This document shows, in pieces, positions 230 to 64,000 of a stretch of DNA of 64,000 nucleotides. The position numbers were made by a program, and so were the translations under genes. The DNA is taken from NCBI RefSeq assembly GCF_000003815.2, contig NC_049982.1, positions 7,915,849 through 7,979,848 on the forward strand, given 5' to 3'. Position 1 is the first letter of the stretch. Every line of letters starts with the position of its first letter. The notes beneath the pieces are model-generated. The model saw only the letters and a list, made by a program, of their open reading frames with translations. It had not been told where the DNA came from and ran no database searches. The DNA comes from Branchiostoma floridae. Taxonomy: Eukaryota > Chordata > Leptocardii > Amphioxiformes > Branchiostomatidae.

Positions 230-2755
230 CTGTTCACAAGACGGCTCCCCAAACCCTCCACATTCGCATGGAGGTCCGGGCGGCCCGGGAACACCATCAC
301 GGCCGTCCCGCCCGTCTCGTCCGGCCGGTCCTTCGGGACCCCGGAAGGGACCTGCGAAATTTGAATATTGATTGAATATCTACACTGTTTATATCATTAA
401 TGACAAAAGGATATTGGTGACAGTGCGTTTCATGTCGCCACTTTTTTTGACAAAATGAAAGTACGTACCAAAGGGGCTACGTCGACGAGCACTTTGGGAT
501 TTTAGAAAACGTAACACAGAATTTTTTAAATACTGCAATAGAAAACGTAACACAACAGAACAACTATCGGTCAGTAAATTTGACACAAGACGTATGACAA
601 GAACTGACAGTGCAAGTTTCGAGCCAAAGAACACGATAACTGTGAATAAGAATCGGAAAGGGACATGAATAAGGAACGTTACATGAACACGAACTTTCAA
701 GTCCAGTCCCAACAAAACGCCAATAAGTGTGGCAATAAAAACTATTGCCATGGCGACGGTTTTATTGTTTATAAGTATTAATGATTGTTGTTTTAGGTTA
801 GTTGTAATTGTGTGCTAATCTTTCGCCTGGCTGTATGTATGAAGATATTGTTTCACGTGATGGATGTTTGAAGGGCATTACTGTTAACAAGAAAGGCGAT
901 CTCTTGTGACGAGCTCGAGTGGCCTATTATAAATGTTTCTCATTGATCATACAAATAAGGTCCTAATTTGCATAAAAGATATCGGTTGATCATCTCCTCT
1001 ACCTAAATAACAATGTGTTCAAAGTATGAAAGTCTTAGCAAAGAAAGCTATTGTAGCATTTTCTCATAGATTATGTAAATGAGACCCTAATTTGTCTTAC
1101 GTCTGCATGTTCAACTTAACGTACATGTTGCTGCCAAATGTCGCAAGAATGGAATTTTCGTCATTTAACACTAAAATACAAAATTTCTCATTGATTATGT
1201 AAATTAGGTAACGATTTGCATAATTGATATCTATCGATATTTCTCTCTAGTTACATGTGTCATGTTTAACAGTTTAAGTGTCCTAGTACAATGAAATTCG
1301 TATTATGTGGCTTGATAAACTGTGCTTATTAATTATGCAAATTAGCCCCTGGTTTGCATTAATAGTCCTTATTCATGGAAGGCATCTCCGAAGTTATCTA
1401 CATATCAAAAATCACGATGATCCGTCAACTCCTTCCCCAGTTATTCCCTTCCAAAATGTGGTGCAATTACGCACGGGCGAACGAACTGCTGTGGAATTTC
1501 GGGAATTTTCACCAATCAGATATATACTTAACAGTAAGTTTGATAATTCTCTCTTTTTTAGTTACATATGGCATATTTTTCCGTAATCTTAACACGAAAT
1601 GCAGTGTATTTATAGACTGCCATCATTGATTATGCAAATTAGCCCTTGAATTGCATGACTAGCATTTAATTATGAAAGGCATCTCTGAAGCTATCTACAG
1701 TTCAAATGTCATGAAGATCCGTCAACCTATTCCAGAGTTATTCCCCTCTAAAGGGATGATGCAACTATGCAGGCGTGGAAAAATTCCTGACATGCCTGCG
1801 GGATTTTGGGAATTCCTGTCAAACGGACGCACACTATAAATTGTATGCTAGCCCCTGAGGCGTCGCCAAAAACCTTCATACCTGCAGGTGTCGTGACGGA
1901 GTTGTCGGAACGCCTGTACCTCCGCAAGGTGGCGTTGTGTTCAGGGACACTGTCAGCTTGGTTCGACTTCTCGCCCTTTATAAAAAAGGTAGGTTTAGAC
2001 TTTTTGTTTGTCTTGGCTCTTGAGTATTCCTAATTGCTATATATAACATATCAAGAAGGCAAGAAAACAGGAAACCAATAGCCTATACACTACCCGCAAA
2101 CCACGTTACATCCGCTGTATGTTGATAGCATTTCAGACACACAAGAAGTGGAACAAAAACTCTATTTTCTTCTAACTACAGCTTAATGCCGAGATGTTAA
2201 GACTAAGAAGCCAGTGTTGAAACCAGGAACATATCCACGGTTCATTCAACTTACAGCCATGCGCTGCCAGATTTTACTTCCCTGTTGTAGCAAGCTACTG
2301 GCAAAAAATACCTCTCGAAAGTTCCCGAAGTTGTGTTCCTCAGCATGCCCGAGTTGAAACTTGGTTTCCAGCACAGCCAGTCTCTCCCTCAAAGACGCCC
2401 CGTCAGCTTTCTCCTTCTGTAACTCCGTCTTCAGAGACGACAGGTGGATTTTCAGGGCCGTTATTTCCTCCTTGTGCGAGGACGCTTCCTCCTTGTCTCC
2501 AATAGAGGCACGTTGCTGGATCTCCATGGCCAAGGTACGATCCTTCAGCGTCAGGATCTGGTCCTTCAGTTGAGAAACATCTTGGAAAGACTTCTCACGG
2601 ACATGCTTAACTTCGTGAGCGAGGAAGACGAGGGCCGCCACCACCAGCACCCCCGCCCCGGCCGCCACGGCCACCGTCACCGGTCGGGCCGCGGGTCGGT
2701 CTCGGCGGGCCCGGCTGGCAACTTCGCTTACGTTAAGCAGCTTCTCCGAGCTCAT
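230..2755 (-). CDS. Gene A: type II transmembrane coiled-coil/collagen protein, 5' part only (3' exons outside window)
   Basis: Three exons are visible: exon 1 at 2755-2312, exon 2 at 1975-1882 and exon 3 at 351-230, all with GT/AG borders and compatible phases (0, then 1, then 0). Exon 1 (148 codons) starts [12 protein letters not shown], has a basic stretch, a transmembrane helix rich in V/A/L at about residues 26-47, then a charged coiled coil to NFGNFRE. Exon 2 holds the sequon NAT and the furin-like motif RYRR. Exon 3 has nine Gly-X-Y triplets including three GRD triplets, followed by a C-x-C cluster and GEPSCEQ. Its closest copies, I and E, continue into a long collagen exon and a ten-cysteine domain, so gene A probably ends likewise beyond the left edge; this cannot be seen. 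Nearly identical to gene I, but intron 2 lacks the LINE found there. Confidence 0.8.
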
Positions 2756-3010
2756 TGTCAGCTTGTAGCGAGAACAGACTAACAAAGAAAGGACAAATCT
2801 ATAACGTCCCTTTCTGTTGCCCGAGATCACTTCCACCTTCAACAGTCGGGACTTGAAGTAAGAAAAAATACCCTGTAAGAGTAAATACCCTGTAAGAAGA
2901 ATGCGTAATTTACAGCAACGTCTCAAAGTACAGAAGCATTGATTGGTTGAGATGTACAGGTGGTGTGATTTTCCAACAATACCACCTTTGCACCTGACGT
3001 CACAACGTCA
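2756..3010 (-). promoter_or_regulatory. Gene A upstream region with CCAAT box and CRE-like palindrome
   Basis: On the minus strand a CCAAT box (plus ATTGG at 2942-2946) lies 187 bp upstream of the ATG, and a perfect TGACGTCA palindrome (CRE/ATF-type site) lies at 2995-3002. The CCAAT box recurs 150-200 bp upstream of exon 1 in genes B, C, D, E, G and J, so it is probably a real promoter element. The full CRE palindrome occurs only here and at gene I (54560-54567). The start context is GACAATGA. Confidence 0.5.
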
Positions 3011-3067
3011 ACACGGCAGCAGTTGGTAAACAGCTGTCTTTGTTCAGACGAATGTTCCATGCCAATA

Positions 3068-3317
3068 TAGCCTGGATACCAGCACCTAGCTCCAAACTAT
3101 AGCAGTTTCGCTCTGATTTATAGTCCTTACGCCAGGGAAGGTCACAAGCCCCTGTCTCTATTTGCACCCAGAGGTCATTGGCACCCGGTTTCTGATTAAC
3201 TGTCCCGCGCTGTGCGAGAGATAACCAGCCCCGCGTGCTGTGTTTGGCGGCAGGGTAAATTGCTTGCCGCACCGAAGAGATTAGCGAGCATAGCACGGCG
3301 GTTTGGTACCCAGGCTA
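3068..3317. mobile_element. 250-bp MITE upstream of gene A
   Basis: Imperfect terminal inverted repeats TAGCCTGGATACC and GGTACCCAGGCTA are flanked by a 9-bp direct repeat ATGCCAATA at 3059-3067 and 3318-3326. Homologous sequence upstream of genes B and C runs through this point without the insert, so it is an insertion. No coding potential. The same copy at the same place upstream of gene I (54633-54882) dates it before that duplication. Superfamily not assigned; an 8-9 bp duplication fits hAT or Mutator-like families. Confidence 0.75.
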
Positions 3318-3326
3318 ATGCCAATA

Positions 3327-6440: not shown

Positions 6441-6484
6441 GAATCTTGTTACCAAGTATCTAATGCCTATCTATACCAAATTTC

Positions 6485-8163: not shown

Positions 8164-11100
8164 CTAGTCACCGGTGCAGTCCCTACAGAGAAGAACAAAA
8201 ATGATTTGTTGTAGAGTTGTACATCAGTTAATGCACAATGAAAATCTTCAATTGCTTTTACTGGCACATTTTGTTGCGTGTTGTTCACCTTGTCATAGAT
8301 CATCAAGTTTCCTTACTGTTTCTGTACCAGGGTTTATTTTTACAGGAAGGGGTTGCTTGCGCCTCGTCGAACACAGGACCCCCATTTCATGTTTTTTTGT
8401 CGAAAGACGGGTGCCGCCCCAACTGAGGTGCCCTTCCCCTATAATCTATTGAAAATCACCTTATGTGAAGTCACGTGGAAAGAGAAGACTCCAGTGGTGT
8501 ACTTACTGTCCCAGGACCTCCACCCGCATGCTGATGTGCTGATTCCATGTCTGCGGCCAGAACCTGACGTAACGTGCAGTTACCGGCGGGTCCAACAGGT
8601 GGCGTACTTCGGTGTCCTGATCAGAGTTGCCAGCGAAGATCTAGGATCAGGATGGTACATGTATTGTGAACGAACAGCCTATCAGAAACCCCGTTCATAA
8701 AAATCAACGTTGTAGGCACACATTATATGACAGACACAATTTCTAATACTGAACTAGAACAATTACAATATTTACTTAGATTGAATGACTATTCATACCT
8801 GCAAGTGCGAGAGAAAACTTTATCAATTCTGTAACGTTGACTACTGTAATTGACTTGATTATGTAAGACAACGGTTACCAACCCTCTCACGTCCCAGTTT
8901 ATCCAGGTATGTAGACCACGTGATTCCGTCTCTGCTGAAGCGTAGTTTGTAGGAGGTCACCCTTTGTGGATAGATGTTACTGGACCTACCCTGGGTGATA
9001 ACTCCAGCTACAGTAGTCTCTGCTCCCACGTCAACCTGGACAGGAATAACACGTAATCCTGAGAAACATCATCGCGGTACAAAATGCCTGCGGTGTTCAA
9101 AATGCCGTACGTAGTTGCATGGTTGTAAGTGTGATTGGTCAACTATGAAGCTTGAATTGGACATTTGTCCACTAAATTTTCCATGCTGACATTTGAATCC
9201 ACATCTTCTGGTTTCCTATGTTTTATATGTTCTTTTAAAAAAAAAAAGATTACACAAATAATTAGAAAGTGCTGACATGAAACTGCGTGAGTCTGCGTCA
9301 ACAAATATCAAGCAAGTGGCTGTCAGTGGAACTTTAGGTTACGCCTGGGAGGGAGCGAGAAGCGAGCACTGGATAGAGGAAAGTGGCGGGGTGGCGCCAG
9401 ATGAATTTATTGTGAAGAGGAGGAGAAGGGAGTGCAAGTACTGTATTATGACGATGAGGATGAAAAAGAAAACATGCCAGAAGATGTGCACGACACAGGA
9501 CAAAAATTATTTGATATGATAAAAACAATATAATTTATACCCTGCAGGCTCCACTTACCTGTAACCATTGCTGGTTGTTGTTCTGTGCAGCGCACCAGGC
9601 TCCGGCGCCCTCATGGGAATGAAGGCGAGCTTTGCTGGCGTCATGACCTGAACTGCCCCACGAAGTGGATGCAGTAAGGTGGCCATCAGGAATAGCGCCG
9701 CTCTCCATACCTAGAGGTACTGCAGTGCACGGCTGCTACATACAGAATGAGATATGCATTCACTGACGGTAAATGTCATGTTACCCATCATCCCTGGACC
9801 ATCGGGCACAATACAAAGGTGTCCCGATACATACATTTGTAGCTTGATATGAATTTACCGCTTTCTTCCGAAAAACGTTGGCCTCGAGCTCAAGTTTGGC
9901 TCGGAACACATGAATGAATGACATTTCATGGGGGTAATAAATGAATGAATGAAAACATCACGTTATCATACGATAATAACTACAGAGTACAGAGCACACG
10001 CTACCTGTGGGCAGGATTGTCCTCCACACCCTCCACATCCACCAGCCGGACCGGGAGGCCCGGGCGGCCCGGGAGCACCATCGCGGCCGTCCCGCCCGTC
10101 TCGTCCGGCCGGTCCTTCAGGACCCCGGAAGAGGCCTGTAACAGTTGCAGTGATAGAGGATTACACCGTGTAAAGTTGACATCATTACCAGCTCGGATAT
10201 CGTGAAGTTATTCGTCCGATCGCCCCGTTTCATCAAAAAGAAATAGCAAAGATTTTCATTCATAGAAATAGCGAAAAAGACACCTTTTTGAAGTTTTTCT
10301 ATTTATCCAATATAAAACGTAGCATAACACATAGGACGCGCCAAACGAAAATCCATTTGGCTGGGGAAGCCACATGCATGTCTCACTACTAGAGTTGGAC
10401 GATCACTGATCTATTGTTTGGAGGGCTATTGTAGAATTTCTCCGGGGCATATCGGACAATAGCGCCAATTTTAGAATTTAACGACGTGGAAAATGTTTAT
10501 ACTAAAAGGGGATCCGGAAATGATCACAATATGCCAAATTTACACCAGCAAGCATAATTCTCTCTCAAAACTCAACTAACGTTCATACCTGCAGTTGCCG
10601 TGACCGAGTTGTCGGATCGCCTGTACCTCCGCAAGGTGGCGTTGTGTTCAGGGACACCGTCAGCTTGGTTCGGCTTCCCGCCCTTCAGACATAAAGAAAG
10701 TTAAGTCGATGGAGGTTAGACATGCAGCTAATAAGATACGTTAGATAACAGTTCATTCAAGAACTGGATAAAAAAGGAGTGAAAATTCTATTCCCTTCCG
10801 AGGGAAAAGCCATTATTGTTATAGGGATGAATTAAAAACAAGAACATGTTCACGCTTCGTTGAACTTAGAGCCATGCACGGAAAGAATTAACCCCCGTGT
10901 TGTAGCAACATGAGCAAGCTACTGGCAAAAAATACCTCTCGAAAGTTCCCGAAGTTGTGTTCCTCAGCATGCCCGAGTTGGAACTTGGTTTCCAGCACAG
11001 CCAGTCTCTCCCTCAAAGACGCCCCGTCAGCTTTCTCCTTCTGTAACTCCGCACGTTCGCTGTCTAGTTGAGTCTGCAGGGACGACATGTGGATTTTCAG

Positions 11101-11433
11101 GGCCGTCACTTCCTCCTTGTGCGAGGACAGTTGGATTTTCAGGGCCGTCATTTCCTCCTTGTGAGAGGACGCTTTCTCCTTGTCTTTAGCGGCGACGTCT
11201 TGCTTGATCTCCATGGCCAAGGTACGATCCTTCAGCGTCAGGATCTGGTCTTTCAGTTGAGCGGAGTTTTCACGGACATGCTTTACCCCATGAAAGAGGA
11301 AGACGAGGGCCGCCACGACCAGCACCCCCGCCACGGCCGCCACGGCCACCGTCACCGGTCGGGCCGCGCCGGGTCGGTCTCGGCGGGCCCGGCCGGCAAC
11401 TTCGCCTGCGTATGCAGCCTTCTCCGAGCTCAT
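8164..11433 (-). CDS. Gene B: type II membrane coiled-coil/collagen/discoidin protein (complete reference copy)
   Basis: Seven exons: 11433-10936, 10682-10589, 10135-10005, 9735-9559, 9035-8883, 8640-8507 and 8182-8164, giving about 401 residues. Tail and transmembrane helix occupy about residues 1-47, the coiled coil runs to 166, the NAT sequon and RYRR furin motif are in exon 2, nine-plus Gly-X-Y triplets and [11 protein letters not shown] are in exon 3. Exons 4-7 form an F5/8 type C domain: [78 protein letters not shown]. The last exon adds DCTGD and a stop, supplying the closing cysteine. Oddities: the coiled coil has a local repeat ([14 protein letters not shown] then [14 protein letters not shown]); the usual QWVTSY is QRVTSY; the spike cysteine found in the other copies is missing. 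A surface or shed trimeric binding protein is inferred from architecture. Confidence 0.85.
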
Positions 11434-13465: not shown

Positions 13466-16400
13466 CTAGTCACCGGTGCAGTCCCTACAGAGGAGAAAAA
13501 ATGATTTGTTATTAAGTGCATCAGTGAATGCGCAGTGAAAATCTTTTTTCAATGCATTTACTGGCACATTGTGTCGTGTTGTTCATCTTGTAGTGACCCA
13601 TAGGTCAGCAGGTCTCCTTGTTGTTTCCGTTTCAGGGTATTCAGAAAGGGTTGCTTGCACCTCCTCGAACACGGACAGTATTTCATGTCTTTTCGAGAGA
13701 CGTGTGTAGCCCAAGATGCCCTTCTCCGAATTAATTCAAAACCGTCTTAATGGAAGTCACACGGAAAGAAGAGAAGACTTCAATAGTGTACTTACTGTCC
13801 CAAGACCTCCACCCGCATACTGAGGTGAGAGTTCCATGCCTGTGGCCAGAACCGGACGTAACGTGCAGTTACCGGCGGCTCCAACAGGTGGCGCACTTCG
13901 GTGTCTCGATCAGAGTTGCCAGAGAAAACCTGGGATGATATTTTGAAGAAAAAAAACAATGGAGCCGGCTAGCAGCAATGCTACACGGAAACAGATGGTA
14001 AAATCTTGCAGTAACACATAAATGATTTATTAGGCTAAAGAAGCCTAAGAACATGTACATCTACATACCCTGAAATATCAGAAAAAACTCTAATCTGGAA
14101 AAAACATCATATATGACTTCTGTCAGTTCATATCCACTATGGTAAAATCCTAGTTAACATCAGCCATACAGTATCGGCTATAGCTTATTAGTGATATTCG
14201 AGAATGACAGTCTCTGCTACGCTGCATCAGTCACATCTGTAACATGTCTCAGGTCTGTTACAAATGTCTTTTTCTGCAAAGTGGCCTCATTAAGTAGTCA
14301 GCAAAATTTATTGGAAACATAAAAAAATCCTTGGAAATATCAAACTTGTGCAGAAGACAATGGTTACCGACCCTATCACGTCCCAGGTTATCCAGGTATG
14401 TAGACCATGTGATTCCGTCTCTGCTGAAGCGTAGTTTGTAGGAGGTCACCCACTGATCTGCACCAGCTCTACCCTGGGTGATAACTCCAGCTACAGTAGT
14501 CTCTGCTCCCACGTCAACCTGAACAGGAAAAACACTGAGAAACGCCAGCGGTACAAAATGCCTACGGAGTTGAATATGTCGTACATAGTTGCATGATTTA
14601 AGTGTGATTGGTCAACCATGAAACTTGAATTGGAGAATGTCCATGCTGACATTTGAACCCTTATCTTCTGCTTTTTTATGTTAAAAAACCCACAAAAGGA
14701 ACACATATAATTAGAAAATGCTAAAATAAAATAGACAACTGCGTGACTGCGTCAACAAATATCAAATAAGTGGCTGTTACGCCTGGGAGGGAACGAGCAA
14801 GCGAGCACTGGATAGAGGAAAGTGGCGGGATATTGCCAGATGAATTTGCTGTGAGGGGAAGGAGGAGAAGGGTGTGCTGGTACTTGTATTTAATATGAGG
14901 ATGAGGATGCAAAAAACATGCCAGAAGATGTGGATGACACAGGACAAAAATGACTTGATATGATAAAAACATATAATCTACACCCTGCAGGCTCTACTTA
15001 CCTGTAACCACTGCTGGTTGTTGTTCTGTGCAGCGCACCAGGCTCCGGCGCCATCCTGAGAATGAAGGCGACCTTTGTTGGTGGCACAACTGCCAGTATT
15101 GTACTGACTGGATGCAGTGATGTGGCCATCAGGAATAGCGCCGCTCTCCATACCTAGTGGTACTGCAGTGCACGGCTTCTATATACAGGATGACATATGC
15201 ATGTTACCGTACCCATTATCCTTTGCCCATACGGTACAAAGTTGTCCAAAGTTAAGCTGGATGTAAATTTACGGCTTCCTAAAAATGTTCGCCTGAAGTT
15301 CGATAGCACAAGAACACATCACGGTATTCTGCAAAAATACCTACAGAACACACGCTACCTGTGGGCAGGATTGTCCTCCACACCCTCCACATCCGCCAAA
15401 TGGACCGGGAGGCCCGGGTGGCCCGGGAGCACCATCACGGCCGTCCCGCCCGTCTCGTCCGGCCGGTCCTTCAGGGCCCCGGAAGAGGCCTGTAACAGTT
15501 GAAGTGATCGTGTACAGTTAATGTCATTGCCAGCTCGGATAGAAATGCGGTTAAGTTAGTCATTTTGGCATTTATCCAATATAGAACAAACCCTAAACAA
15601 ATAAATGCCAGGCAGGACACCAAACGATCGAAAGCCCCTTCGACTGGGGAATTAAAAGTTATGCTAGCGCTATACTAGAGTTGGGCCTAGACCTAAAGAG
15701 GTGACCTGTGAAGACCCTGGAAAACAGTCCGGCATTCATGATTCACAAATATCAGTCAGAAATCTATTTCTATGTGACTTTGACGCAAATAAAGCAAAGG
15801 TTAGACAAATACTTTAGAACTTAACGACGTGGAAAATCAATACTAAAAGAGAAAATATCACAATAGGACAATATTACACCAACAAACACAATCCTCTCTA
15901 TTTCACGCGCATTTACGTTAAGTCAAACAAAACTCAGCTAACAGACATACCGGCAGGTGTCGTGACTGAGTTGTCGGAGCGCCTGTACCTCCGCAAGGTG
16001 GCGTTGTGTTCAGGGACACTGTCAGCTTGGTTCGGCCTCTCGTCCTTAGATATAAAGAAAGTTACATTTATGAAAGTTATACATGCAGCTAGTAAGATAA
16101 GTAAAGTTCATTCAAGACACCGACGGAAGGTAGCGAATGCTACCTGAGACGTCTGGCCGTTTCCAAATTTTATCCAGTTGCTTGATCATTAGTAACTGTT
16201 ACCTTGCATAGGATGAAGTTGGTTTAGCTTAGATATTTTTGATAACACGGTGACTCCATTGACGCATTATTGTTATAGGGTTGGGACAGGAACATATTCA
16301 CCCTTTATTGAACTTAGAGCCATGTACGTACGCTAAGAATTTTCTCCGGTGCTATAGGAACATGAGCAAGCTACTGTTAAAATATCATACCTCTCGAAAG

Positions 16401-16804
16401 TTCCCAAAGCTGTGTTCCTCAGCATGCCCGAGTTGGAACTTGGTCTCCAACACAGCCAGCCGCTCCCTCAAAGATGCGCCGTCAGCTTTCTCCTGCTGTA
16501 ACTCCGTCTTCAGAGACGACAGTTGGATTTTCAGGGCCGTCACTTCCTGGTTGTCTTTGGCAGCGGTGTCTTGTTTGATCTCCATGGCCAAGGTACGATC
16601 CTTCAGCGTCAGGACCTGGTCTTTCAGTTGACCGGAGTTTTCACGGACATGCTTTACCTCATGAAAGAGGAAGACGAGGGCCGCCACGGCCAGCACCCCC
16701 GCCCCGACCGCCACGGCCACCGTCACCATTCGGGCGACGCCGGGTCGGTCTCGGCGGGCCCGGCCGGCAGCTTCGACAACGCATGCAACCTTCTCCGAGC
16801 TCAT
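13466..16804 (-). CDS. Gene C: type II membrane coiled-coil/collagen/discoidin protein (complete, shortest coiled coil)
   Basis: Seven exons: 16804-16391, 16044-15951, 15489-15359, 15178-15002, 14518-14372, 13929-13796 and 13484-13466; about 371 residues. All borders are GT/AG and phases match gene B. Exon 1 is the shortest of the array (138 codons) because the coiled coil lacks the [10 protein letters not shown] segment and goes from DNQEV directly to TALKIQLSS. Exon 2 begins DERPNQAD and keeps NAT and RYRR. The discoidin domain runs from [12 protein letters not shown] to MRVEVLGQ plus DCTGD and has four cysteines, including the GSCAT one that gene B lacks, and an intact [14 protein letters not shown]. 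Exons 4-6 resemble gene H closely. Nothing visible suggests a defect. Confidence 0.85.
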
Positions 16805-18547: not shown

Positions 18548-21500
18548 TCTGACTATAAATGCCTGATACGTTCTGAGTGCACAAATGAAGTAGCTACATT
18601 TTGTATTTTATCATCTCCTTGTTTGCATGCATCAGTCAAAATATTTCTACAGACACTGTAGTGACTAGGGGCAGACAGCAACACCAGCATACAAAAACAA
18701 TGAATTTAGTAATCCTTCTTGACATCATGAAGTCTCCACTTTCGTCGAGATAAGTATCAACGTTGAGAAAACAACACTTTGGAGGAAATATACATTTGTT
18801 TACGTATAAATGCTGTTGGATACTACAATAAGTAAAAGAAGCTTGGTGTTTCACTTCAAACTTCAAACTGTGTAAATCTGAGCCATGGAAGCTCCAGTCT
18901 TCATGGTGTGTCTAGTCACTGGTACAGTCCCTGCAGAGGAGAACAAAAATGACTGTTGTTGTACATCAGTTAATGCACAGTGAAAATCTTCAAATGCCTT
19001 TACTGGCACATTTTCTTGTGTCTTGTTCACCTTGTCATATGTTCACCATATCAAGTTTCCTTGCTGTTTCTGTACCAGGGTTTACTTTTACAGGAAGGGG
19101 TTGCTTGCGCCTCGTCGAACAGTGGACCCCCATTTCATGTTTTTTTCCGAAAGACGGGTGCCGCCCCAACTGAGGTGTCCTCTCCGGATCTATTGAAAAT
19201 CGCCTTATGTGAAGTCACATGGAAAGAGAAGACTCCAGTAGTGTACTTACTGCCCCAAGACCTCCACCCGCATGCTGATGTGCCCAGTCCATGTCTGCGG
19301 CCAGAACCGGACGTAACGTGCAGTTACCGGCGGGTCCAACAGGTGGCGCACTTCGGTGTCCTGATCAGTGTTGCCAGAGAAGACCTGGGGTGGTATTGTG
19401 AAAAATACAATGCGGAAAAGTGCAGAAAAATAGGTGTGTTGCACATTGTTGATGTCGGCCGAGGTACATAACCCAACATCTTGTTGGAGATATCCAAATT
19501 ACCGAATGTCCAAGACTTGCCGAACGCCAAAACAACCGGGGACCTGTTCCCCAATACCATGAAACTAGGGTAACTCCTGAAAAATCACATTAGTTACACA
19601 AACAGCTATGGTGTGATATGTGCATCATCTCGCGCAAACGGGTAGGCGACGCGCTAAAGTACATCCGAATGCAGCAAATGGATCGTGAGATACAGCTACG
19701 AATAGCATAGCAACCCCAACTACAATACTCCGTCAAGAGGTGATCCTCCTTCACAGAGTAAAAACATTCTTGGAAATATCAAACTTGTGCAGAAGACAAT
19801 GATTTATAATACCAACCTTCTCACGCCCCAGTTTGTCCAGGTATGTAGACCACGTGCTTCCGTCTCTGCTGAAGCGTAGTTTGTAGGAGGTTACCCATTG
19901 TTGATGGGTGTCTCCAGACCTACCCTGGGTGATAACTCCAGCTACAGTAGTCTCTGCTCCCACGTCAACCTGGACAGGAGGAAAACGGCATCCTGGTACG
20001 TTATTCAGGGTACCTATTCTACTTTTGTATCTGTACATATTCTACATTTGCGTCAAGTTTTTCACCCAATATATTAACAACGTAAGTTACGTAACCAGGT
20101 CTCACGTACATTCACGGTGTCTTGTTAGATACTCCGGGATATGGTGTTAGCCGTTGTCTTCTAATAGCTCGTGATTTATTGTTATCTTATAAAAACTATA
20201 TCAAACTGTTGTTCAAACATAAACAGAAAATGCGACAGTACATAGCAACATACAACCAATGGCAGCAAAAATGAAAGAAACTGGTCAGAAGATGTTAGCC
20301 GGGGGAAGAAGAATAATTTGACGAAAGGAACCAAAGAATATAACGACAGTCAAACATATGAATCAAGGGCACAATTACAAAGCAAGTTACACCGTGCGGT
20401 GGTCCTCTCACCTGTAGCCACTGGTTGGTGTTCAGCGGATGTGCGGCACACCAGGCTCCGGCCCATCCTCCCTGGCTTGTGAGACTCTCCTCCCGGGAAT
20501 GAGGACGAGCTTTGCTGGTGGCACAATCCGGGTGTGTAGTGGATGCAGTGATGTGGCCATCAGGAATAGCGCCGCTCTCCATACCTAGTGGTACTGCAGT
20601 GCACGATTGCTACATACAGGATGTGACATTGGTGGTAGAGGTCATGTCATTCAATATCCATTGATCCATACGGTGCAACATCCATTTCCCATTGCCCAAG
20701 ACCCCGATACAACATCTACACATGTCTCTGTTATGGCGGACTGTTTAACAAAGGTTACTAGCGAACACTATGTCTAAAGCTTGTCTATGTCTAAGTTCCA
20801 TGTAGATTGATGTAAGTTTACGGATAATATCGATTCCCAAAAAATTTGTTCGCCTCAAGCTGAAGCTGATTAGCACAAGAACAGGTCACATTGCTATATG
20901 ACAATAACTACAGTACTGTACGCACCAGACAGGATTGTCCTCCACACCTTCCACATCCACCAGCCGGACCGGGAGGCCCGGGCGGACCGGGAACACCATC
21001 ACGGCCGTCCCGCCCGTCTCGTCCGGCCGGTCCCTCAGGACCACGGAAGGCACCTGTGACAATTGCATTGAGGTTTATAGTTACTTAACAAAAATACATG
21101 ATCACAAAATGCACTATCATATACTAGTAGCATAATTTTATAATGGTGTCAGACGAGACGGAATAACAATAAGGACAATTTCCACCCTGGCACTATTGTA
21201 GTCAACTTTCTCGCGAAAATGGAACAGACTAGTGACCATTAAAGGTTACATTTGAAGTAACCACCGACCAACGTCTATTTATTCCTGGTGCGTTCAAAGT
21301 TTATAGGAAAGAACCCATGCCTGCCTACCTAAGCCGTAGGGTGTTGTGATTGTGTTGGCCGCTCTCTTGGACCGCCGCATGGGGGCGCTGTGATCTCCAA
21401 TCTTGACGTCATCACCAACTTGACTCGGTTTCACATCGGGGTCAGTCTTCTGTTGTAAAATGTTCAAAATTTTACTCCGCATCCGCACTTATAGGTTCTA

Positions 21501-22691
21501 TAAAGCACACTGTAGCTACGCCATTCTACTTTCTCCATGTTGTTCCCGACTCCATCACGCGTTATTTTGTTAAGTCTCTGGAATAAAGTTTTGCTCTTTT
21601 ACCCCTCCCTAACTCGACAAGTCTAAGTCGGCCTTGCCACTCATGCTTATAACTGTCTAAATGCTACACAAATTATCATGATGCTACTTTCCGACAGTTT
21701 ATGCAAGCTCCCATATTATTCCACACCACCACCGCACACATCGACACTGTTCACTGCGTACAGCTATCTAAAGTAGAAAAACCAGACATGTCGAGTGTTT
21801 GCCCGAGGCAGGTTAACCGGTTACCTGTCATGAGGTGTGAGTGACCCAACCTGCCCAATTATCCGTGGTGTTTATGTGCATGATATATATAGTCAGAACG
21901 TTGTTGTTGTTTTTGAGAAAATATGAGACATTGGTAGTTCTGAACGCTATCATATTGCTTCCCTGGCGATGGTGAAATTTGGCGTATAGTGAAGGAGAGG
22001 TTAATGTAAGCTTAAGCTTTACAAGTTGATTGGAGGCTGTTGACACAGACCAAGGATCCAAAACGTGAGATTATACCATTGTAGCCTAAAGCTGGTATAT
22101 TTGACAACATAACCGGACCTGAATATAAAAATACTGAAGAACTTTTAATTATAGCTCAGTAAGCTCACTATGATGTGATGTTGTCAACAGGGAGGCCGCT
22201 AATGTTATGGAAGCACTGAGAAGAATTTGTGCTCCCCCCTTACCTCATGAGTGGTTCCGTAGGTTGGTTCTTGTTCGTTTTCGACACCGAGTTGGAACTT
22301 GGTTTCCAACACAGCCAGCCGCTCCCTCAAAGACGCCCCTTCAGTTTTCTCTTCCTGTAACTCTGTCTTAAGAGACGACATTTCGGCACGTTCGCTGTCT
22401 AGTTGAGTCTGCAGAGACGACAGTCGGATTTTGAGGGCCGTTATTTCCTCCTTGTGCGAGGACGCTTCCTCCTTGTCTCTCGCAGCGGTTTCTTGCTTGA
22501 TCTCCATGGCCAAGGTACGATCCTTCAGCGCCAGGATCTGGTCTTTCAGTTGAGACACATCTTGGTAGCAGTGAGACACGTCTTGCGAGGACTTCTCTCG
22601 CACATATTTGACCTCGTGAGCGAGGAAGACGAGGGCCGCCACCACCAGCACCCCCGCTCCCACCGACACGGCCACCGTCACCGGTCGGGCC

Positions 22692-24720: not shown

Positions 24721-24844
24721 AATCCACCCATCCTTGTCGGATATTGGCAATGAGGTAAAACTTCCTTGGAACGAGGTTTGCAACAGGTCTAAATATTTCT
24801 TTTATGCAATTACATGTTGTTTTTGCAAAGTGGGCAACAGAACG

Positions 24845-24881
24845 CCCCCCCCCCCCCCCCGACACACACGCGCGCGCGCGC
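24845..24881. repeat. Poly-C run followed by alternating purine-pyrimidine tract
   Basis: Sixteen C, then (AC)n and (CG)n on the plus strand, in the core of the foldback element. Alternating CG/CA is Z-DNA-prone. Confidence 0.8.
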
Positions 24882-24939
24882 AATGCACACAAACACTAGT
24901 AATAATTATTAATTTTTTGTATGGTTTGATCAAGGAGCT

Positions 24940-27240: not shown

Positions 27241-27829
27241 ATAGAACGTCCTTGTTTTTACGGAATGCATAAGAGCTCTACTAGTCGCAAATTTAGTGTG
27301 AATTTCGCAAAGCTCATTTGTATTCAAATCCGTGTGTTTTTTGGTAATGAATCGTATAAAATAACTATAAATTCGTACATTTTACGAAAGCCGTTATATT
27401 CTTATAAAAGCAGGCACCCCTTCTTTAGAGATCTCCTCATAACAGGTCAAAATATATCTTGATGAAGCCATATGTGTTGTTTTTTTCGTATTGAACCAAA
27501 AATGTTAATCTCCATGCAGATTTCTCCGGTGGCAATAAAAAAGTAACATAAGCTGGGGAAGGAATTAGCCAGCAAAGGAGGATAATTTGCCAAAGATGTC
27601 TACAAACTTGTTACAGGGCTGAGCCTGAAGTAAACCAAAACAGAATTAGCATAAAGGTGCGAAGTTTCTGCATTCTTTACAATGGCAAACAAGTATCAGT
27701 ATTCTCTCAGCAGAGGTTGGGTCACCACGTGAAGGGAGCGAACCGATAAATTCCGACTACTAGTACTTTTCCCAACTCACTGTGACCAAAAACCCGCTTG
27801 AAGAAAAAAATATTCACTTTCTTGGGTAA

Positions 27830-29268: not shown

Positions 29269-29344
29269 GTCGGGCCGCGCCGGGTCGGTCTCGGCGGGAC
29301 CGGCCGGTAACTTCGCTTACGTTAAGCAGCTTCTCAGAAGTCAT

Positions 29345-32309: not shown

Positions 32310-32369
<60 letters not shown>

Positions 32370-43240: not shown

Positions 43241-46200
43241 CTAGTCACCGGTGCAGTCCCTACAGAGGAGAACAAAAATGATTTGTTGTGCATCAGTGAA
43301 TGCGCAGTGGAAATCTTACTTCAATGCCTTTACTGGCACATTGTGTCGTGTTGCTCATCTTGTACAAATTGTAGTGCTTAGTGACCCATAGGTCAGCAAG
43401 TTTCCTTGTTGTTTCCGTTTCAGAAAGGGTTGCTTACACCTCCTCGAACACGGACGGTATTTCATGTCTTTTCGAGAGACGTGTGTAGCCCAAGATGCCC
43501 TTCTCCGAATTAATTCAAAACCGTCTTAATGGCAGTCACACGGAAAGAAGAGAAGACTTCAATAGTGTACTTACTGTCCCAAGACCTCCACCCGCATACT
43601 GAGGTGAGAGTTCCATGCCTGTGGCCAGAACCGGACGTAACGTGCAGTTAGCGGGGGGTCCAACAGGTGGCGCACTTCGGTGTCTCGATCAGAGTTGCCA
43701 GAGAAAACCTGGGATGATATTTTGAAGAAAAAAAACAATGGAGCCGGCTAGCAGCAATGCTACATGGAAACAGATGGTAAAATCTTGCAGTAACACATAA
43801 ATGATTTATTAGACTAAAGAGGCCTAAGAACACGTACATCTACATACCCTGAAATATCAGAAAAAACTCTATCTAATCTGGAAAAAAATCATATATGACT
43901 TCTGTCAGTTCATATCAACTATGGTAAAATCCTAGTTAACATCAGCCATACAGTATCGGCTATAGATTATTAGTAATATTCGAGAATGACAGTCTCTGCT
44001 ACGCTGCATCAGTCACATCTGTAAGCTGTCTCAGGTCTTACAAATGTCTTCTTCTGCAAAGTGGCCTAGTCAGCAAAATCCTTGGAAATATCGAACTTGT
44101 GAAGAAGACAATGGTTACCGACCCTATCACGTCCAAGTTTGTCCAGGTATGTAGACCACGTGGTTCCGTCTCTGCTGAAGCGCAGTTTGTAGGAGGTCAC
44201 CCACTGATCTGCACCAGCTCTACCCTGGGTGATAACTCCAGCTACAGTAGTCTCTGCTCCCACGTCAACCTGAACAGGAAAAACACTGAGAAACGCCAGC
44301 GGTACAAAATGCCTGCGGAGTTGAATATGTCGTACATAGTTGCATGATTTAAGTGTGATTGGTCAACTTTGAAACTTAAATTGGAGAATGTCCATGCTGA
44401 CATTTGAACCCATATCTTCTGCTTTTTAATGTTTTTCAAAAAACCACAAAGGGAACACAAATAATTAGAAAATGCTAAAATAAAAATAGATAACTGCATG
44501 AATCTGCGTCAACAAATATCAAACAAGTGGCTGTCAGCGGAGCTAGGTTACGCCTGGGAGGGAGCGAGAAAGCGAGCACTGGATAGAGGAAATTGGAGGA
44601 GAAACAAGAAGGGTGTGCTAGTACTTGTATTATGATGATGAGGATGCAAAAACATGCCAGAAGATGTGCATGACACAGGACAAAAATGATTTGATATGAT
44701 AAAAAAGTATAACCTACACCCTGCAGCCTCTACTTACCTGTAGCCACAGCTGGTTGTTGAATTGTGCACACCAGGCTCCGGCGCCCACCTGGGAATGAAG
44801 GCGAGCTTTGCTGGCGGCACAACTGCCAGCATTGACCTGACTGGATGCCGTAATGTGGCCATCAGGAATAGCGCCGCTCTCCATACCCAGTGGTACTGCA
44901 GTGCACGGCTGCTATATACAGGGTGTAACATGTATTTACTGGTGGTAAAGGTCACGTCATTCAATATCCATTGCCCCATACGGTGCGACATCCATTACCC
45001 ATTGCCCAAGACCCCAGTACAACAGCTACACATGTCTCTGTCATGTCAAACTGTTAAACAAAGGTTACTAGCCAACACTATGCGTCTAAAGCTTGCCTAT
45101 GTCTAAGTTCCATGTAGATTGATGTAACTTGAGTTTACGGATAATATCGATTCCCAAAAAATTTGTTCGCCTCAAGCTGAAGCTGATTAGCACAAGAACA
45201 GGTCACATTGCTATATGACAATAACTACAGTACTGTACGCACCAGACAGGATTGTCCTCCACACCTTCCACATCCACCGGACCGGGAACACCATCACGGC
45301 CGTCCCGCCCGTCTCGTCCGGCCGGTCCCTCAGGACCACGGAAGGCACCTGTGACAATTGCATTGAGGTTTATAGTTACTTAACAAAAATACATGATCAC
45401 AAAATGCACTATCATATACTAGTAGCATAATTTTATAATGGTGTCAGACGAGACGGAATAACAATAAGGACAATTTCCACCCTGGCACTATTGTAGTCAA
45501 CTTTCTCGCGAAAATGGAACAGACTAGTGACCATTAAAGGTTACATGTGAAGTAACCACCGACCAACGTCTATTTTCCTGGTGCGTTCAAAGTTTATAGG
45601 AAAGAACCCATGCCTGCCTACCTAAGCCGTAGGGTGTTGTGATTGTGTTGGCCGCTCTCTTGGACCGCCGCATGGGGGCGCTGTGATCTCCAAGCTTGAC
45701 GTCATCACCAACTTGACTCGGTTTCACATCGGGGTCAGTCTTCTGTTGTAAAATGTTCAAAATTTTACTCCGCATCCGCACTTATAGGTTCTATAAAGCA
45801 CACTGTAGCTACGCCATTCTACTTTCTCCATGTTGTTCCCGACTCCATCACGCGTTATTTTGTTAAGTCTCTGGAATAAAGTTTTGCTCTTTTACCCCTC
45901 CCTAACTCGACAAGTCTAAGTCGGCCTTGCCACTCATGCTTATAACTGTCTAAATGCCACACAAATTATCATGATGCTACTTTCCGACAGTTTATGCAAG
46001 CTCCCATATTATTCCACACCACCACCGCACACATCGACACTGTTCACTGCGTACAGCTATCTAAAGTAGAAAAACCAGACATGTCGAGTTTTTGCCCGAG
46101 GCAGGTTACCTGTCATGAGGTGTGGGTGACCCAACGTGCCCAATCATCCGTGGTGTTCATGTGCATGATATATATATATAGTCAGAACTTATTGTTGTTT

Positions 46201-47007
46201 TCGAGAAAATATGAGACAATTGCAGTTCTGAACGCTATCACATTGCTTTCCTGGCGATGGTGAAATTTAGCGTAAAGTGAGGGAGAGGTTAATCATTTAA
46301 TGTAAGCTTAAGCTTTACAAGTTGATTGGAGGCTGACACAGACATATCCAAAACGTGAGATTGTACCATTGTAGCTTAAATCTAGTATGTTTAACACCAT
46401 AAACTGGTCTGAATATAAAAAGACTGAAGAACTGTTAACTAAAGCTCACTATGATGTAATGCTGTCAACAGGGAGGCGGGGAGTGCTATCGAAGTTCTGA
46501 GAAGAATCTATGCTAACCCCTTACCTCGTGAGAGGTTCCGTAGGTTGCTTCTTGTTCATTTCCAAATCCGAGTTGGAACTTGGTTTCCAGCACAGCCAGT
46601 CTCTCCCTCAAAGACGCCCCGTCAGCTTTCTCCTTCTGCAACTCCGTCTTGAGAGACGAGACCTCAGCACGTTCGCTGTCTAATTGAGTCTGCACAGACG
46701 ACAGTTGGATTTTCAAGGCCGTCATTTCCTCCTTGTGACAGGACGCCTCTTCCTTGTTTCCAGTAGCGGCGTCTTGCTTGATCTCCATGGCCAAGGTGCG
46801 ATCCTTCAGCGTCAGGATCTGGTCTTTCAGTTGAGCGGAGTTCTCACGGACATGCTTAACTTCGTGAGCGAGGAAGACGAGGGCCGCCACCACCAGCACC
46901 CCCGCCCCGGCAGCCACGGCCACCGTCACCGGTCGGGCCGCGCCGGGTCGGTCTCGGCGGGCCCGGCCGGTAACTTCGCTTACGTTAAGCAGCTTCTCCG
47001 AGCTCAT
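43241..47007 (-). pseudogene. Gene H: discoidin-type copy frameshifted by a 22-bp deletion in the collagen exon
   Basis: Exons by homology: 47007-46525, 45742-45622, 45348-45243, 44911-44738, 44269-44123, 43708-43575 and 43259-43241. All splice sites are kept. Exon 3 is 106 nt against 128 nt in its sister D: 22 bp encoding Gly-X-Y triplets are gone, and the frame shifts after VPGP. The shifted frame passes all of exon 4 and hits a stop early in exon 5, so collagen and discoidin domains are lost unless the deletion is an assembly error or a splice change compensates. All other exons would encode normal domain sequence ([42 protein letters not shown]), which suggests a recent event. Exons 1-3 match D (including the RSKR exon 2); exons 5-7 match C. 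Confidence 0.75.
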
Positions 47008-48434: not shown

Positions 48435-54320
<5,886 letters not shown>

Positions 54321-56369: not shown

Positions 56370-59300
56370 CTAGTCACCGGTGCAGTCCCTACAGAGGAGA
56401 ACAAAAATGATTCGTTGTACAGTTGTACATTGGTTAATGCACAGTGAAAATCTTCAAATGCCTATACTGGCACATTTTGTTGTGTGTTGTTCACCTTGTC
56501 ATATGTCATCAAGTTTCCTTACTGTTTCTGCACCAGGGTTTATTTTTACAGGAAGGGGTTGCTTGCGCCTCGTCGAACAGTGGAACCCTTTTCCGAAAGA
56601 CGGGTGCCGCCCCAACTGAGATGCCCTTCTCCGGATCTATTGAAAATCGCCTTATGTGAAGTCACGTGGAAAGAGAAGACTTCAGTAGTGTACTTACTGC
56701 CCCAAGACCTCCACCCGCATGCTGACGTGCTGATTCCATGTCTGCGGCCAGAACCGGACGTAACGTGCAGTTACCGGTGGGTCCAACAGGTGGCGCACTT
56801 CGGTGTCCTGATCAGAGTTGCCAGCGAAGATCTAGGATCAGGATGGTACATGTATTGTGAACGAACAGCCTATCAGAAACCCCGTTCATAAAAATCAACG
56901 TTGTAGGCACACATTATATGACAGACACAATTTCTAATACTGAACTAGAACAATTACAATATTTACTTAGAATGAATGACTATTCATACCTGCAAGTGCG
57001 AGAGAAAACTTTATCAATTCTGTAACGTTAACTACTGTAATTGACTTGATTATGTAAGACAATGGTTACCAACCTTCTCACGTCCAAGTTTGTCCAGGTA
57101 TGTAGACCACGTGATTCCATCTCTGCTGAAGCGTAGTTTGTAGGAGGTCACCCTTTGTGGATAAGTGTTACTGGACCTACCCTGGGTGATAACTCCAGCT
57201 ACAGTAGTCTCTGCTCCCACGTCAACCTGGACAGGAATAACACGTAATCCTGATAAACATCAGCGCGGTACAAAATGCCTGCGGTGTTCAAAATGCCATA
57301 CGTAGTTGCATGGTTGTAAGTGTGATTGGTCAACTATGAAGCTTGAATTGGACATTTGTCCACTAAATTTTCCATGCTGACATTTGAATCCACATCTTCT
57401 GGTTTCCTATATTCTATAATATATGTTCTCTTAAAAAAAAAACAAAGATTACACAAATAATTATAATTAGAAAGTGCTGACATGAAACTGCGTGAGTCTG
57501 CGTCAACAAATATCAAGCAAGTGGCTGTCAGTGGAACTATAGGTTACGCCTGGGAGGGAGCGAGAAGCGAGCACTGGATAGAGGAAAGTGGCGGGGTGGC
57601 GCCAGATGAATTTGTTGTGAAGAGGAGGAGAAGGGAGTGCAAGTACTGTATTATGACGATGAGGATGAAAAAAACATGCCAGAAGATGTGCACGACACAG
57701 GACAAAAATTATTTGATATGATAAAAACAATATAATTTATACCCTGCAGGCTCCACTTACCTGTAACCATTGCTGGTTGTTGTTCTGTGCAGCACACCAG
57801 GCTCCGGCGCCCTCCTGAGAATGAAGGCGACCTTTGCTGGTGGCACAACTGCCAGTATTGTACTGACTGGATGCAGTGATGTGGCCATCAGGAATAGCGC
57901 CGCTCTCCATACCTAGTGGTACTGCAGTGCACGGCTGCTACATACAGAATGAGATATGCATTCACTGACGGTAAATGTCATGTTACCCATCATCCCTGGA
58001 CCATCGGGCACAATACAAAGGTGTCCAGATACATACATTTGTAGCTTGATATGAATTTACCGCTTTCTTCCGAAAAACGTTGGCCTCGAGCTCAAGTTTG
58101 GCTCGGAACACATGAATGAATGACATTTCATTGGGGTTATTAAATGAATGAATGAAGACATCACGTTATCATACGATAATAACTACAGAGTACAGAACAC
58201 ACCCTACCTGTGGGCAGGATTGTACTCCACACCCTCCACATCCACCAGCCGGACCGGGAGGCCCGGGCGGCCCGGGAACACCATCGCGGCCGTCCCGCCC
58301 GTCTCGTCCGGCCGGTCCCTCAGGACCCCGGAAGAGGCCTGTAACAGTTGCAGTGATCGAGGATTACACCGTGTACAGTTGACATCATTACCAGCTCGGA
58401 TATCGTGAAGTTATTCGTCCGATCGCCCCGTTTCATCAAAAAGTTCGGAAATAGCGAAAAAGACACCTTTTTGAAGTTTTTCTATTTATCCAACATAAAA
58501 CGTAGCATAACACATAGGACGCGCCAAACGAAAATCCATTTGGCTGGGGAAGCCACATGCATGTCTCACTACTAGAGTTGGACGATCACTGATCTATTGT
58601 TTGGAGGGCTATTGTAGAATTTCCCCGGGGCATATCGGACAATAGCGCCAATTTTAGAATTCAACGACGTGGAAATCGTTTATACTAAAAGGGGAAATGA
58701 TCACAATATGACAAAATTACATCAACAAGCACAATTCTCTCTCAAAACTCAGCTAACGTTCATACCGGCAGGTGTCGTGACCGAGTCGTCCGATCGCCTG
58801 TACCTCCGCAAGGTGGCGTTGTGTTCAGGGACACCGTCAGCTTGGTTCGGCTTCCCGCCCTGCAGACATAAAGAAAGTTAAGTCGATGGAGGTTAGACAT
58901 GCAGCTAATAAGATACGTTAGATAACATTTCATTCAAGAACTGGATAAAAAAAGGAGTGGAAATTCTATTCCCTTCCGAGGGAAAAGCCATTATTGCTAT
59001 GGGGTTGAATTAAAAACATATTCACACTTCATTGAACTTAGGGCCATGCACGGAAAGAATTTACCCCCGTGTTGTAGCAACATGAGCAAGCTACTGGTAA
59101 AGAATACCTCTCGAAAGTTCCCGAAGTTGTGTTCCTCAGCATGCCCGAGTTGGAACTTGGTTTCCAGCACAGCCAGTCTCTCCCTCAAAGACGCCCCGTC
59201 AGCTTTCTCCTTCTGTAACTCCGCACGTTCGCTGTCTAGTTGAGTCTGCAGGGACGACAGGTGGATTTTCAGGGCCGTCATTTCCTCTTTGTGCGAAGAC

Positions 59301-59563
59301 GCTTCCTCCTTGTCTCTGGCGGCGGCGTCTTGCTTGATCTCCATGGCCAAGGTACGATCCTTCAGCGTCAGGATCTGGTCTTTGAGCTGAGCGGAGTTTT
59401 CACGGACATGCTTAACCCCATGAAAGAGAAAGACGAGGGCCGCCAGCACCAGCACCCCCGCCCCGGCCGCCACCGCCACCGTCACCGGTCGGGCCGCGCC
59501 GGGTCGGTCTCGGCGGGCCCGGCCGGTAACTTCGCTTACGTTGAGCAGCTTCTCCGAGCTCAT
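56370..59563 (-). CDS. Gene J: type II membrane coiled-coil/collagen/discoidin protein (complete)
   Basis: Seven exons: 59563-59108, 58859-58766, 58338-58208, 57937-57761, 57226-57074, 56831-56698 and 56388-56370; about 387 residues. It is the segmental-duplication partner of gene B: both share the unusual exon 6 start IFAGNSDQD (acceptor CTAG/AT instead of CAG/GT), QRVTSYKL in place of QWVTSYKL, and [16 protein letters not shown] in exon 2. Differences are informative: J keeps the spike cysteine ([10 protein letters not shown]) that B has lost, and its exon 1 lacks the extra 14-residue coiled-coil repeat of B. The sequon and RYRR are kept. The last exon encodes DCTGD. No disabling change seen. 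Confidence 0.85.
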
Positions 59564-60770: not shown

Positions 60771-60779
60771 ATTAATCTG

Positions 60780-61570: not shown

Positions 61571-61572
61571 GC

Positions 61573-62796: not shown

Positions 62797-63395
62797 GGGC
62801 CTTCACACGGAAATCGAATTAGCAGGAATCAAGCCGAATCAGCCGGAATGAAGTATTTGCAAACTTCGTGTCACATTCGGGGCCATTCTGGTGGGAATTC
62901 CAAATGGGCCTTAAATCCCCTTCACACGAGAAGGAATGAGCCGGAATGCCATCAGAATGAAAATTCTTGTCTATTCCTGTGAATTTGTAGTGCATTCTAG
63001 ACATTCTCACGGCATTCGAGATATTCTTTCGGCCACATTCTGACAGGATTCGAGGTGGCTTGCCATTTCGGTTCTCCATCGAATTAGATAAGAATGTTAC
63101 GAATAATGTTAGAATGCCGTAGATTGCGGTCAGACTACAGTTAGAATCGTTAGAACACACTAAAAAAAGTAAGAATCCACTACGAATGCCATTCGATATT
63201 TCTCCACTTCGAATGCACTTCGAGAGTTTTTAACATGTCAAAAACTTTCGAGCCAGCCAAACGAACGGGGACGAATATCTCGAATGCAGTAAGAATGTTT
63301 AGAATACAGTACGAATTGCGAGGAATTGCCACGAATAGAAAAAAAATTCATTCGGACGGCATTCCGGCTCATTCGTGCTCTCGTGTGAAGGGGGC
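62797..63395. mobile_element. ~599-bp PIF/Harbinger-like MITE in the gene K 3' region
   Basis: Ends GGGCCTTCACACGG and CGTGTGAAGGGGGC are inverted repeats flanked by TTA at 62794-62796 and 63396-63398. A three-base TTA target and G-rich ends fit PIF/Harbinger MITEs. An internal copy of the end (CCCCTTCACACGAGA near 62917) and many GAATG/CATTC motifs make the interior foldback-like. The minus open frame inside it (62819-63160) is not a gene. Confidence 0.65.
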
Positions 63396-63730
63396 TTAAA
63401 GACCTGAACTAACTGTTGGTGGACCCATAGCTCATTAGAGGCCATTTCTGAACCCAGCTAGGATACCTCAAAAACTACAGATAAACACCAACTTGACCAA
63501 GACAAATTAACAGGCCAAAAATAATGTTTCCATTTCTACTTAGTTGATTAAGTATCAAAGGTAAGAAAAAAATGAAGAAAAATACAAACGTTTGACGTGT
63601 AAATGCTGTAAAATATTACAATAGCTAAAAGAAGAAAATTGGTGTTTCATTTCACACTGCAAAGCAGATATCCTGTAATGACTAATGTACAAATCTGAGC
63701 TTTGGAAATCTCCAAGTCTGCATGCTGCAC

Positions 63731-64000
63731 CTAGTCACCGGTGCAGTCCCTAAAGAAAAGAACCAAAAATGACTTATTATACATCAGTGGATGCGCACTG
63801 AAAATCATCTTATGTCTGTTCTGAAAAACAGGTGCCGCCCCAACTGTGATGCCCTTCCCAGGATTAATTCAAAATCGCCTTATGTTAAGTCACACAGAAA
63901 GAGCAGAAGACTTTAGTTTGTGTACTTACTGCCCCAAGACCTCCACCCGCATGCTGATGTGCCAATTCCATGTCTGCGGCCAGAACCGGACGTAACGTGC
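63731..64000 (-). CDS. Gene K: last exons of another discoidin-type copy (5' part outside window)
   Basis: The end of exon 6 (64000-63930: [23 protein letters not shown], donor CA/GTAAGTAC) and exon 7 (63749-63731, acceptor TTTAG, frame DCTGD then stop) are visible. The sequence is as well kept as in J, so the unit is probably functional and the array continues to the right. Confidence 0.75.

Follow-up and report, generated by a model that had tools for sequence, protein, structure and literature searches.

Collagen-like type II membrane proteins provide the closest described counterparts for a tandem gene array of the lancelet Branchiostoma floridae, part of which lies in a stretch of 64,000 nucleotides on contig C4 (NC_049982.1; C4:7915849-7979848, hereafter the window). 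Passages of one review place ectodysplasin, the colmedins, and the class A scavenger receptors in this group (PMC7848082). Class A scavenger receptors such as MARCO, SCARA5, and CL-P1 are type II proteins with a collagen region, and the portions of two sources that treat them describe most members as ending in an SRCR or C-type lectin domain (PMC5119243, PMC7848082). Ectodysplasin A is likewise type II and collagen-like with a shed ectodomain, and a title in the review's reference list points to a TNF-like trimer as its head (PMC7848082). The colmedins, among them gliomedin and UNC-122, add a C-terminal globular domain to this design, and the same review passages state that their ectodomain is shed as well (PMC7848082). 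In the MACIT collagens XIII, XXIII, and XXV, the helix is followed by a coiled coil, and a furin site immediately precedes the first collagen (passages of PMC7848082 and PMC4678570). They share a conserved C-terminal motif with two cysteines, and the sections of Tu et al. (2015) on which we draw report no MACIT in B. floridae or Branchiostoma belcheri (PMC4678570).

The array encodes proteins that resemble these families in layout and differ from them at the C-terminus. A common 5' half, composed of exons 1 to 3 (E1 to E3), specifies a transmembrane helix, a heptad-patterned region, a furin-type motif, and a short collagen, and is followed by one of two modules: an F5/8 type C (F5/8C) domain in F-type units (exons E4F, E5F, and E6F), or a second collagen and a ten-cysteine domain in C-type units (exons E4C, E5C, and E6C). 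A coiled coil also occurs in several class A scavenger receptors; the array is set apart from these by its heads and by the furin-type site before the collagen, and neither SRCR nor C-type lectin was among the Pfam families found up to an E-value of 1 in one C and one F model. Ectodysplasin A has a furin site and a short collagen, whereas the array proteins bear an F5/8C or ten-cysteine head instead of TNF and possess a long coiled coil; neither TNF nor the olfactomedin domain of colmedins appeared in the Pfam scan of the two models. Sequence signals for type II topology and a furin site before the first collagen are shared with MACITs, in contrast to which the array collagens are short and the C-terminal two-cysteine motif is lacking (by inspection, without an alignment). 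Compared with other F5/8C proteins, that is, factors V and VIII, lactadherin, neuropilins, and discoidin receptors, the array joins this domain to a membrane collagen. By predicted architecture, the array proteins belong with the collagen-like type II membrane proteins and fall within none of the member families, because the C-terminal domain differs; membership among MACITs, ectodysplasin, colmedins, or class A scavenger receptors was rejected on this ground. The first-pass annotation of the window had named EDA and collagens XIII/XXIII/XXV as architectural analogues, a likeness that holds but leaves out the class A scavenger receptors and colmedins (passages of PMC7848082). Its statement that no described family combines these parts agrees with our literature search, which found no description of a membrane collagen with F5/8C or the ten-cysteine domain and did not cover the 2008 amphioxus immune-repertoire paper; the words collagen, discoidin, and scavenger are all absent from the text of PMC4284660.

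The gene models rest on genomic sequence. Exon peptides of two units read by hand were used for tblastn over the window and its neighbours, initially across 264 kb and then across 284 kb (window plus flanks). Throughout the genome (513 Mb, 431 contigs), exon 1 gave 49 matches in C4:7831290-8136494, all on the minus strand, and one weak match elsewhere. After hand merging of six split rows and subtraction of one remnant, these amount to 42 exon-1 loci, fragments included, on a single strand of 305 kb, almost five times the window length. At least 27 E5F-type exons were counted by hand among the array matches listed, while E5C matched 18 times, 13 times inside the array and five times elsewhere, with two of these five at 37% identity. 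Exon order was counted in the 284 kb; the right-hand 70 kb of the array lie outside this territory. Here, 29 exon-1 loci lead directly into one module each (18 F, 11 C), accompanied by two exon-1 fragments without a module, one remnant severed by an insert, and three F modules without exon 1, which all sit downstream of C units and have their own exon 3. The 5' half is uniform (E1 to E2, 29 cases; E2 to E3, 29) and continues from E3 into E4F (20) or E5C (11), the repetitive E4C being excluded from the count. Within the modules, E4F is followed by E5F (20), E5F by E6F (22), and E5C by E6C (10), and the next gene begins with E1 after E6F (21) or E6C (8). E3 and E4F are separated by 125-520 bases in 20 of 20 cases.

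Splice signals agree with most exon edges. Intron 1 is in phase 0, intron 2 in phase 1, and intron 3 in phase 0 in F and C units alike, which confirms the earlier proposal that both modules attach behind the same phase-0 intron after exon 3. F introns 4 and 5 are in phase 0, and the C introns are in phase 1, then phase 2. Exceptions are three C units without clear exon-2 edges and one F set with a broken E4F start. A simple rule, which set no requirement for a start codon in E1, found an open frame from E1 to the stop in 19 of 28 units. Of the nine rows in the window, seven satisfy this rule, including unit 4 (22.7 kb), whose own start was lost to an insert. The remaining two are unit 7, with a frameshifted collagen exon (45221-45348) and all other exons open, and unit 1, which is cut by the window and whose second collagen the rule did not find in the neighbouring DNA. 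By window coordinate the units follow the order C-F-F-F-C-C-F-C-F-F, that is, the previously described F-F-F-C-C-F-C-F-F with a C unit added at the left edge. This unit was the probable fourth C unit of the first-pass annotation, and its ten-cysteine exons indeed lie just left of the window (E5C at C4:7914810, E6C at C4:7914374), as does its second collagen. The claim of ten units with exons 1-3 requires correction to nine, all on the minus strand, given that the tenth is represented by a portion of E6F alone (63929-64000); E5F, E4F, and E3F of this unit fall beyond the window edge, and an E1 belonging to it was not found.

Exon 1 encodes a short cytosolic tail, one transmembrane helix, and the heptad-patterned region. 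All 27 full copies have a best 19-residue stretch with a Kyte-Doolittle value of 2.56-2.99 and a flank that is more positive on the N-terminal side; because of these two properties, we predict an N-inside, type II topology. In 24 of 25 units, the heptad pattern was reached in no more than 15 of 300 shuffles. RhxxhE, which we take to be a coiled-coil trimer motif, is present in all 29 E1 matches that extend to the query end. A furin-type motif R-x-K/R-R, as RSKR or RYRR, stands between coiled coil and collagen in 29 of 29 exon-2 copies, in line with the earlier reading of the window as coding for furin-type membrane collagens of type II. A second candidate, RARR before the helix, was rejected as a furin site since it would be cytosolic. 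Exon 3 encodes a brief run of Gly-X-Y that is built around a (GRD)n core and closes with a cysteine-rich portion.

The F exons together form a full F5/8C domain (PF00754, 107.1 bits against a cut-off of 28.2, E 9e-31, one member scanned), so that the profile search bears out the earlier identification. Solved relatives in the PDB, with near full-length matches, include domains of factor VIII/V, neuropilin, and lactadherin, and discoidin receptors were found too. F5/8C domains usually have an N- and C-terminal cysteine pair; all 18 intact F modules contain the first cysteine and end in VEVLGQ and a stop, without the closing one. Variability was analysed in these 18 modules, some of them near-copies, which remain from 20 complete sets after dropping one with N bases and one with a broken E4F. 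Positions at most two residues away from the seven membrane contacts of factor VIII C2 have an entropy of 1.30 bits, compared to 0.31 elsewhere, and the alignment letters agree with the numbering used for these seven contacts. No other circular shift reaches the tip value (1 of 166 including the unshifted one), and wider windows of 3, 4, and 5 residues give 3, 2, and 1 of 166; with loop borders picked after seeing the data, entropies are 1.13 versus 0.25. The ratio of nonsynonymous to synonymous differences (pN/pS) is 0.83 in the tip loops and 0.29 in the framework. This contrast was drawn within the family. Head variation thus placed, at the loops that touch the membrane in factor VIII, suggests an expanded recognition system.

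The C module combines a second collagen, whose length is very different among units, with the ten-cysteine domain. The second collagens of units 5 and 8 far exceed that of unit 6, so stalk length differs among C genes. In units 5 and 8, the second collagen is also an 18-bp tandem repeat of 21.5 and 23.5 copies, respectively. An alignment of seven copies, of which four belong to the array and three come from other parts of the genome, shows all ten cysteines unchanged throughout, as well as a CGPNYCCC near the end. Pfam, NCBIfam, and PDB sequences were searched with the domain and yielded no convincing hit (best PDB E-value 1.7); it is possibly new. A resistin-like similarity, suggested by the cysteine-rich end, was discarded when Pfam returned no family for three copies at E-values up to 5. 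Two units, with E1 at C4:7999072 and 7907208, no longer have an intron between E3 and E4C, and a single open exon encodes both of their collagens; these units lie in a 5.5-kb block, 97% alike, and therefore count as one event. Outside the array, a ten-cysteine relative at C3:28.96 Mb has tblastn matches to E3, E4C, E5C, and E6C, accompanied by an E1-like frame (MSSEK start, helix, RIAALE) recognized by eye only. The domain is also present at C11:9.48 Mb and C3:18.63 Mb, where no collagen run was found in the 10 kb around each site (one stretch holds an N run).

How did two modules come to alternate behind one 5' half? Among 1300 self-matches, the 45 longest are all direct, 1.9-6.5 kb in length, 86-99.9% alike, and change partners, as expected from the repeated duplication that had been proposed. 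The longest secure collinear pair spans about 11 kb (7868465-7879515 versus 8051071-8062076, two adjoining 97% blocks). These matches agree with unequal exchange that acted piecewise on one or two units. When 27 exon-1 sequences (16 F, 11 C) are placed on a tree, three changes of module label are required, two of them imposed by starred branches. Shuffled labels averaged 8.8 changes and never came down to three in 500 trials; for these reasons the label appears clustered on the tree but not of single origin. Exon 2 adds a similar picture, with RSKR leading to F only (9 of 9) and RYRR to both modules (11 C, 9 F), and certain exon classes are found with different partners, such as E4F class a, which joins two E5F classes. 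The single exon-shuffling point suggested earlier is not supported in that form by these data and is too simple, as exons 1 and 2 appear to have swapped partners as well. The nearest F5/8C sequence outside the array, among the matches listed, is at C10:1.885 Mb (71% over one exon), where E4F- and E5F-like exons with the same breaks are visible by eye and neither a third F exon nor a collagen run can be seen in the 8 kb inspected. All three F exons recur twice with the same breaks at C8:20.64 Mb, again by eye. Given that F5/8C recurs at these two loci with identical exon breaks, it might be a mobile phase-0 cassette in this genome. Together with the C-type relative on C3, the cassettes elsewhere suggest that the C architecture came first and that F was captured.

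We consider it probable that the array is a lancelet expansion of trimeric, furin-releasable type II membrane collagens with two swappable heads, reshuffled for recognition in the manner of scavenger-type receptors or opsonins. Three chains would be joined by the coiled coil that ends in the trimer-type motif, and would then fold into the short collagen from the N-terminal side, as is described for membrane collagens in passages of the review (PMC7848082). The cysteine-rich end of the exon-3 collagen could lock the trimer once freed, and cleavage by a proprotein convertase between coiled coil and collagen would yield a soluble form. The released trimer would carry either three F5/8C heads, or the second collagen and three ten-cysteine heads. 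These heads would be the recognition part and bind in a multivalent fashion, with F copies of different tip loops possibly binding different patterns of membrane lipids or glycans. Tethered or shed, the proteins might act as scavenger-type receptors or opsonins that clear microbes or debris. With regard to their origin, an F5/8C cassette bounded by phase-0 introns would have replaced the second collagen and the ten-cysteine exons behind exon 3, and unequal recombination would later have spread and reassorted the exons. More tentatively, the array could represent a germline-diversified lancelet repertoire of trimeric, furin-releasable discoidin lectins, in which three exons with one or two binding loops each reassort among about 27 F modules, and in which the second head (about 13 array copies) would be a ten-cysteine domain without earlier description that sits on the same stalk.

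Several observations weigh against a reshuffled recognition array. Nine of 28 units fail the open-frame rule, including two whose E1 contains stops and one that is frameshifted; some failures are due to true lesions, and in others the rule missed an exon edge. Copy number could be inflated by duplicated haplotypes in the assembly, and some copies may be haplotypes placed in tandem. In the loops, pN/pS does not reach 1, and synonymous differences are higher there, too (0.35 versus 0.14 elsewhere), for which reason misaligned indels or old, long-separated copies may contribute to the loop differences; loops of many domains vary simply since change is tolerated there. Resolution of the exon-1 tree is poor, with stars on 8 of its 23 inner branches. 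A four-gamete test revealed no full quartet in six exon pairs, so that the case for reassortment rests on the exon classes with several partners. Pfam Collagen scores are under the cut-off, and the Gly-X-Y runs were called from sequence. Both fused-exon units are without a clear exon-2 donor and may be non-working, and in the C3:28.96 Mb relative neither E1 nor E2 found a tblastn match at an E-value of 0.01.

Adhesion or matrix organisation, as with MACITs, gliomedin, or ectodysplasin, is an unlikely alternative, with the array supplying dosage or tissue-specific copies. The architecture is as close to ectodysplasin, colmedins, and MACITs as to scavenger receptors, judging from the review passages (PMC7848082), and neuropilins and discoidin receptors also bear F5/8C heads; however, 42 exon-1 loci and variable binding tips would, in our judgement, be unusual for a structural or developmental ligand. 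We regard it as improbable that the array is largely decaying and that its variability reflects relaxed constraint among redundant copies. The failing units, the transposon-like insert in another unit, the three F modules without exon 1, and the loop pN/pS below 1 all speak for decay, whereas the open units, the conserved splice sites, and pN/pS values of 0.44 in E1 (24 copies), 0.54 in the whole F module, and 0.64 in the ten-cysteine domain (9 copies), in addition to the low framework ratio, speak for constraint. There is a small likelihood that the proteins are secreted or surface agglutinins (mucus lectins) that serve feeding, not defence, in the filter-feeding pharynx or the endostyle: particle binding would suit a diverse, trimeric, lectin-like design, but no sequence feature separates a feeding from an immune function. 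Finally, splicing of a single gene to either an F or a C module as its 3' end is highly improbable and was set aside, for although three F modules without their own exon 1 sit downstream of C units, these have their own exon 3, all 29 module-bearing exon-1 loci run directly into exons of one kind, and a new exon 1 follows 21 of 22 E6F and 8 of 10 E6C exons (orphan F sets come after the two remaining E6C, and the counted exons end with the leftmost E6F).

Coordinates of the features in the window are collected in the table. The insert in unit 4 has inverted arms of 1051 nt (22696-23746 and 28214-29264, 94%), contains tandem repeats of 121 and 75 bp, and is flanked on both sides by the 8-bp direct repeat GTCGGGCC. 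The uninterrupted site reads through exactly at four other places in the window and with two mismatches at a fifth. An in-frame ATG in the insert arm could replace the lost start of the unit 4 gene. Other features are a 163-bp tandem repeat between units 1 and 2 (6477-7062, 3.6 copies, 91%) and, in intron 2 of unit 8, an open frame of 481 codons (51367-52812) with a partial reverse transcriptase (PF00078, E 2e-9).

Table. Units of the array and the transposon-like insert, in window coordinates; sequence motifs of exon 2 are given in brackets.
Feature	Position	Strand	Exons and remarks
Unit 1, C-type, 5' part	230..2755	-	E1 2755-2312; E2 (RYRR) 1975-1882; E3 collagen 351-230
Unit 2, F-type	8503..11433	-	E1 11433-10936; E2 (RYRR) 10682-10589; E3 10135-10005; E4F 9735-9559; E5F 9035-8883; E6F 8640-8503 (TAA); open frame 396 codons
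Unit 3, F-type	13792..16804	-	E1 16804-16391; E2 (RYRR) 16044-15951; E3 15489-15359; E4F 15178-15002; E5F 14518-14372; E6F 13929-13792; 366 codons
Unit 4, F-type, exon 1 interrupted	19247..22699	-	E1 (3' part) 22699-22244; E2 (RRSKR) 21449-21329; E3 21053-20926; E4F 20609-20412; E5F 19969-19817; E6F 19384-19247
Transposon-like insert (6.6 kb) in exon 1 of unit 4	22692..29268		Ends set by hand
Unit 4 exon 1, first 25 codons, severed by insert	29270..29344	-	
Unit 5, C-type	31993..37306	-	E1 37306-36869; E2 (RYRR) 36511-36418; E3 34221-34100; E4C long second collagen 33575-33164; E5C 32860-32680; E6C 32167-31993; 473 codons
Unit 6, C-type	38511..41225	-	E1 41225-40737; E2 (RYRR) 40386-40296; E3 39916-39795; E4C short second collagen 39520-39469; E5C 39183-39024; E6C 38676-38511; 359 codons
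Unit 7, F-type, frameshift in collagen exon	43571..47007	-	E1 47007-46525; E2 (RRSKR) 45742-45622; E3 45348-45221 (shifted); E4F 44911-44738; E5F 44269-44123; E6F 43708-43571
Unit 8, C-type	48435..54320	-	E1 54320-53877; E2 (RYRR) 53541-53448; E3 50425-50304; E4C long second collagen 49782-49335; E5C 49042-48880; E6C 48603-48435; 479 codons
Unit 9, F-type	56694..59563	-	E1 59563-59108; E2 (RYRR) 58859-58766; E3 58338-58208; E4F 57937-57761; E5F 57226-57074; E6F 56831-56694; 382 codons
Unit 10, F-type, last exon only	63929..64000	-	E6F continues to C4:7979911, 63 bases past window edge

Whether domain shuffling in lancelets is exceptional or reflects errors of gene prediction is disputed, as set out in parts of one source (PMC4967905). 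The array offers a concrete case for this dispute, with the same exon order in 29 units and one join within an open exon (one duplicated pair). It further provides a natural series of copies for asking how tip loops set specificity, and a cysteine-rich domain without a family for structural work. To our knowledge, invertebrate chordates are without antibodies but possess expanded recognition genes. The array shows a possible way to build such a repertoire: one 5' half, comprising anchor, trimeriser, release site, and collagen, would be combined with interchangeable 3' heads behind a single phase-0 intron, and variation would be placed on the known binding face of the F5/8C fold.

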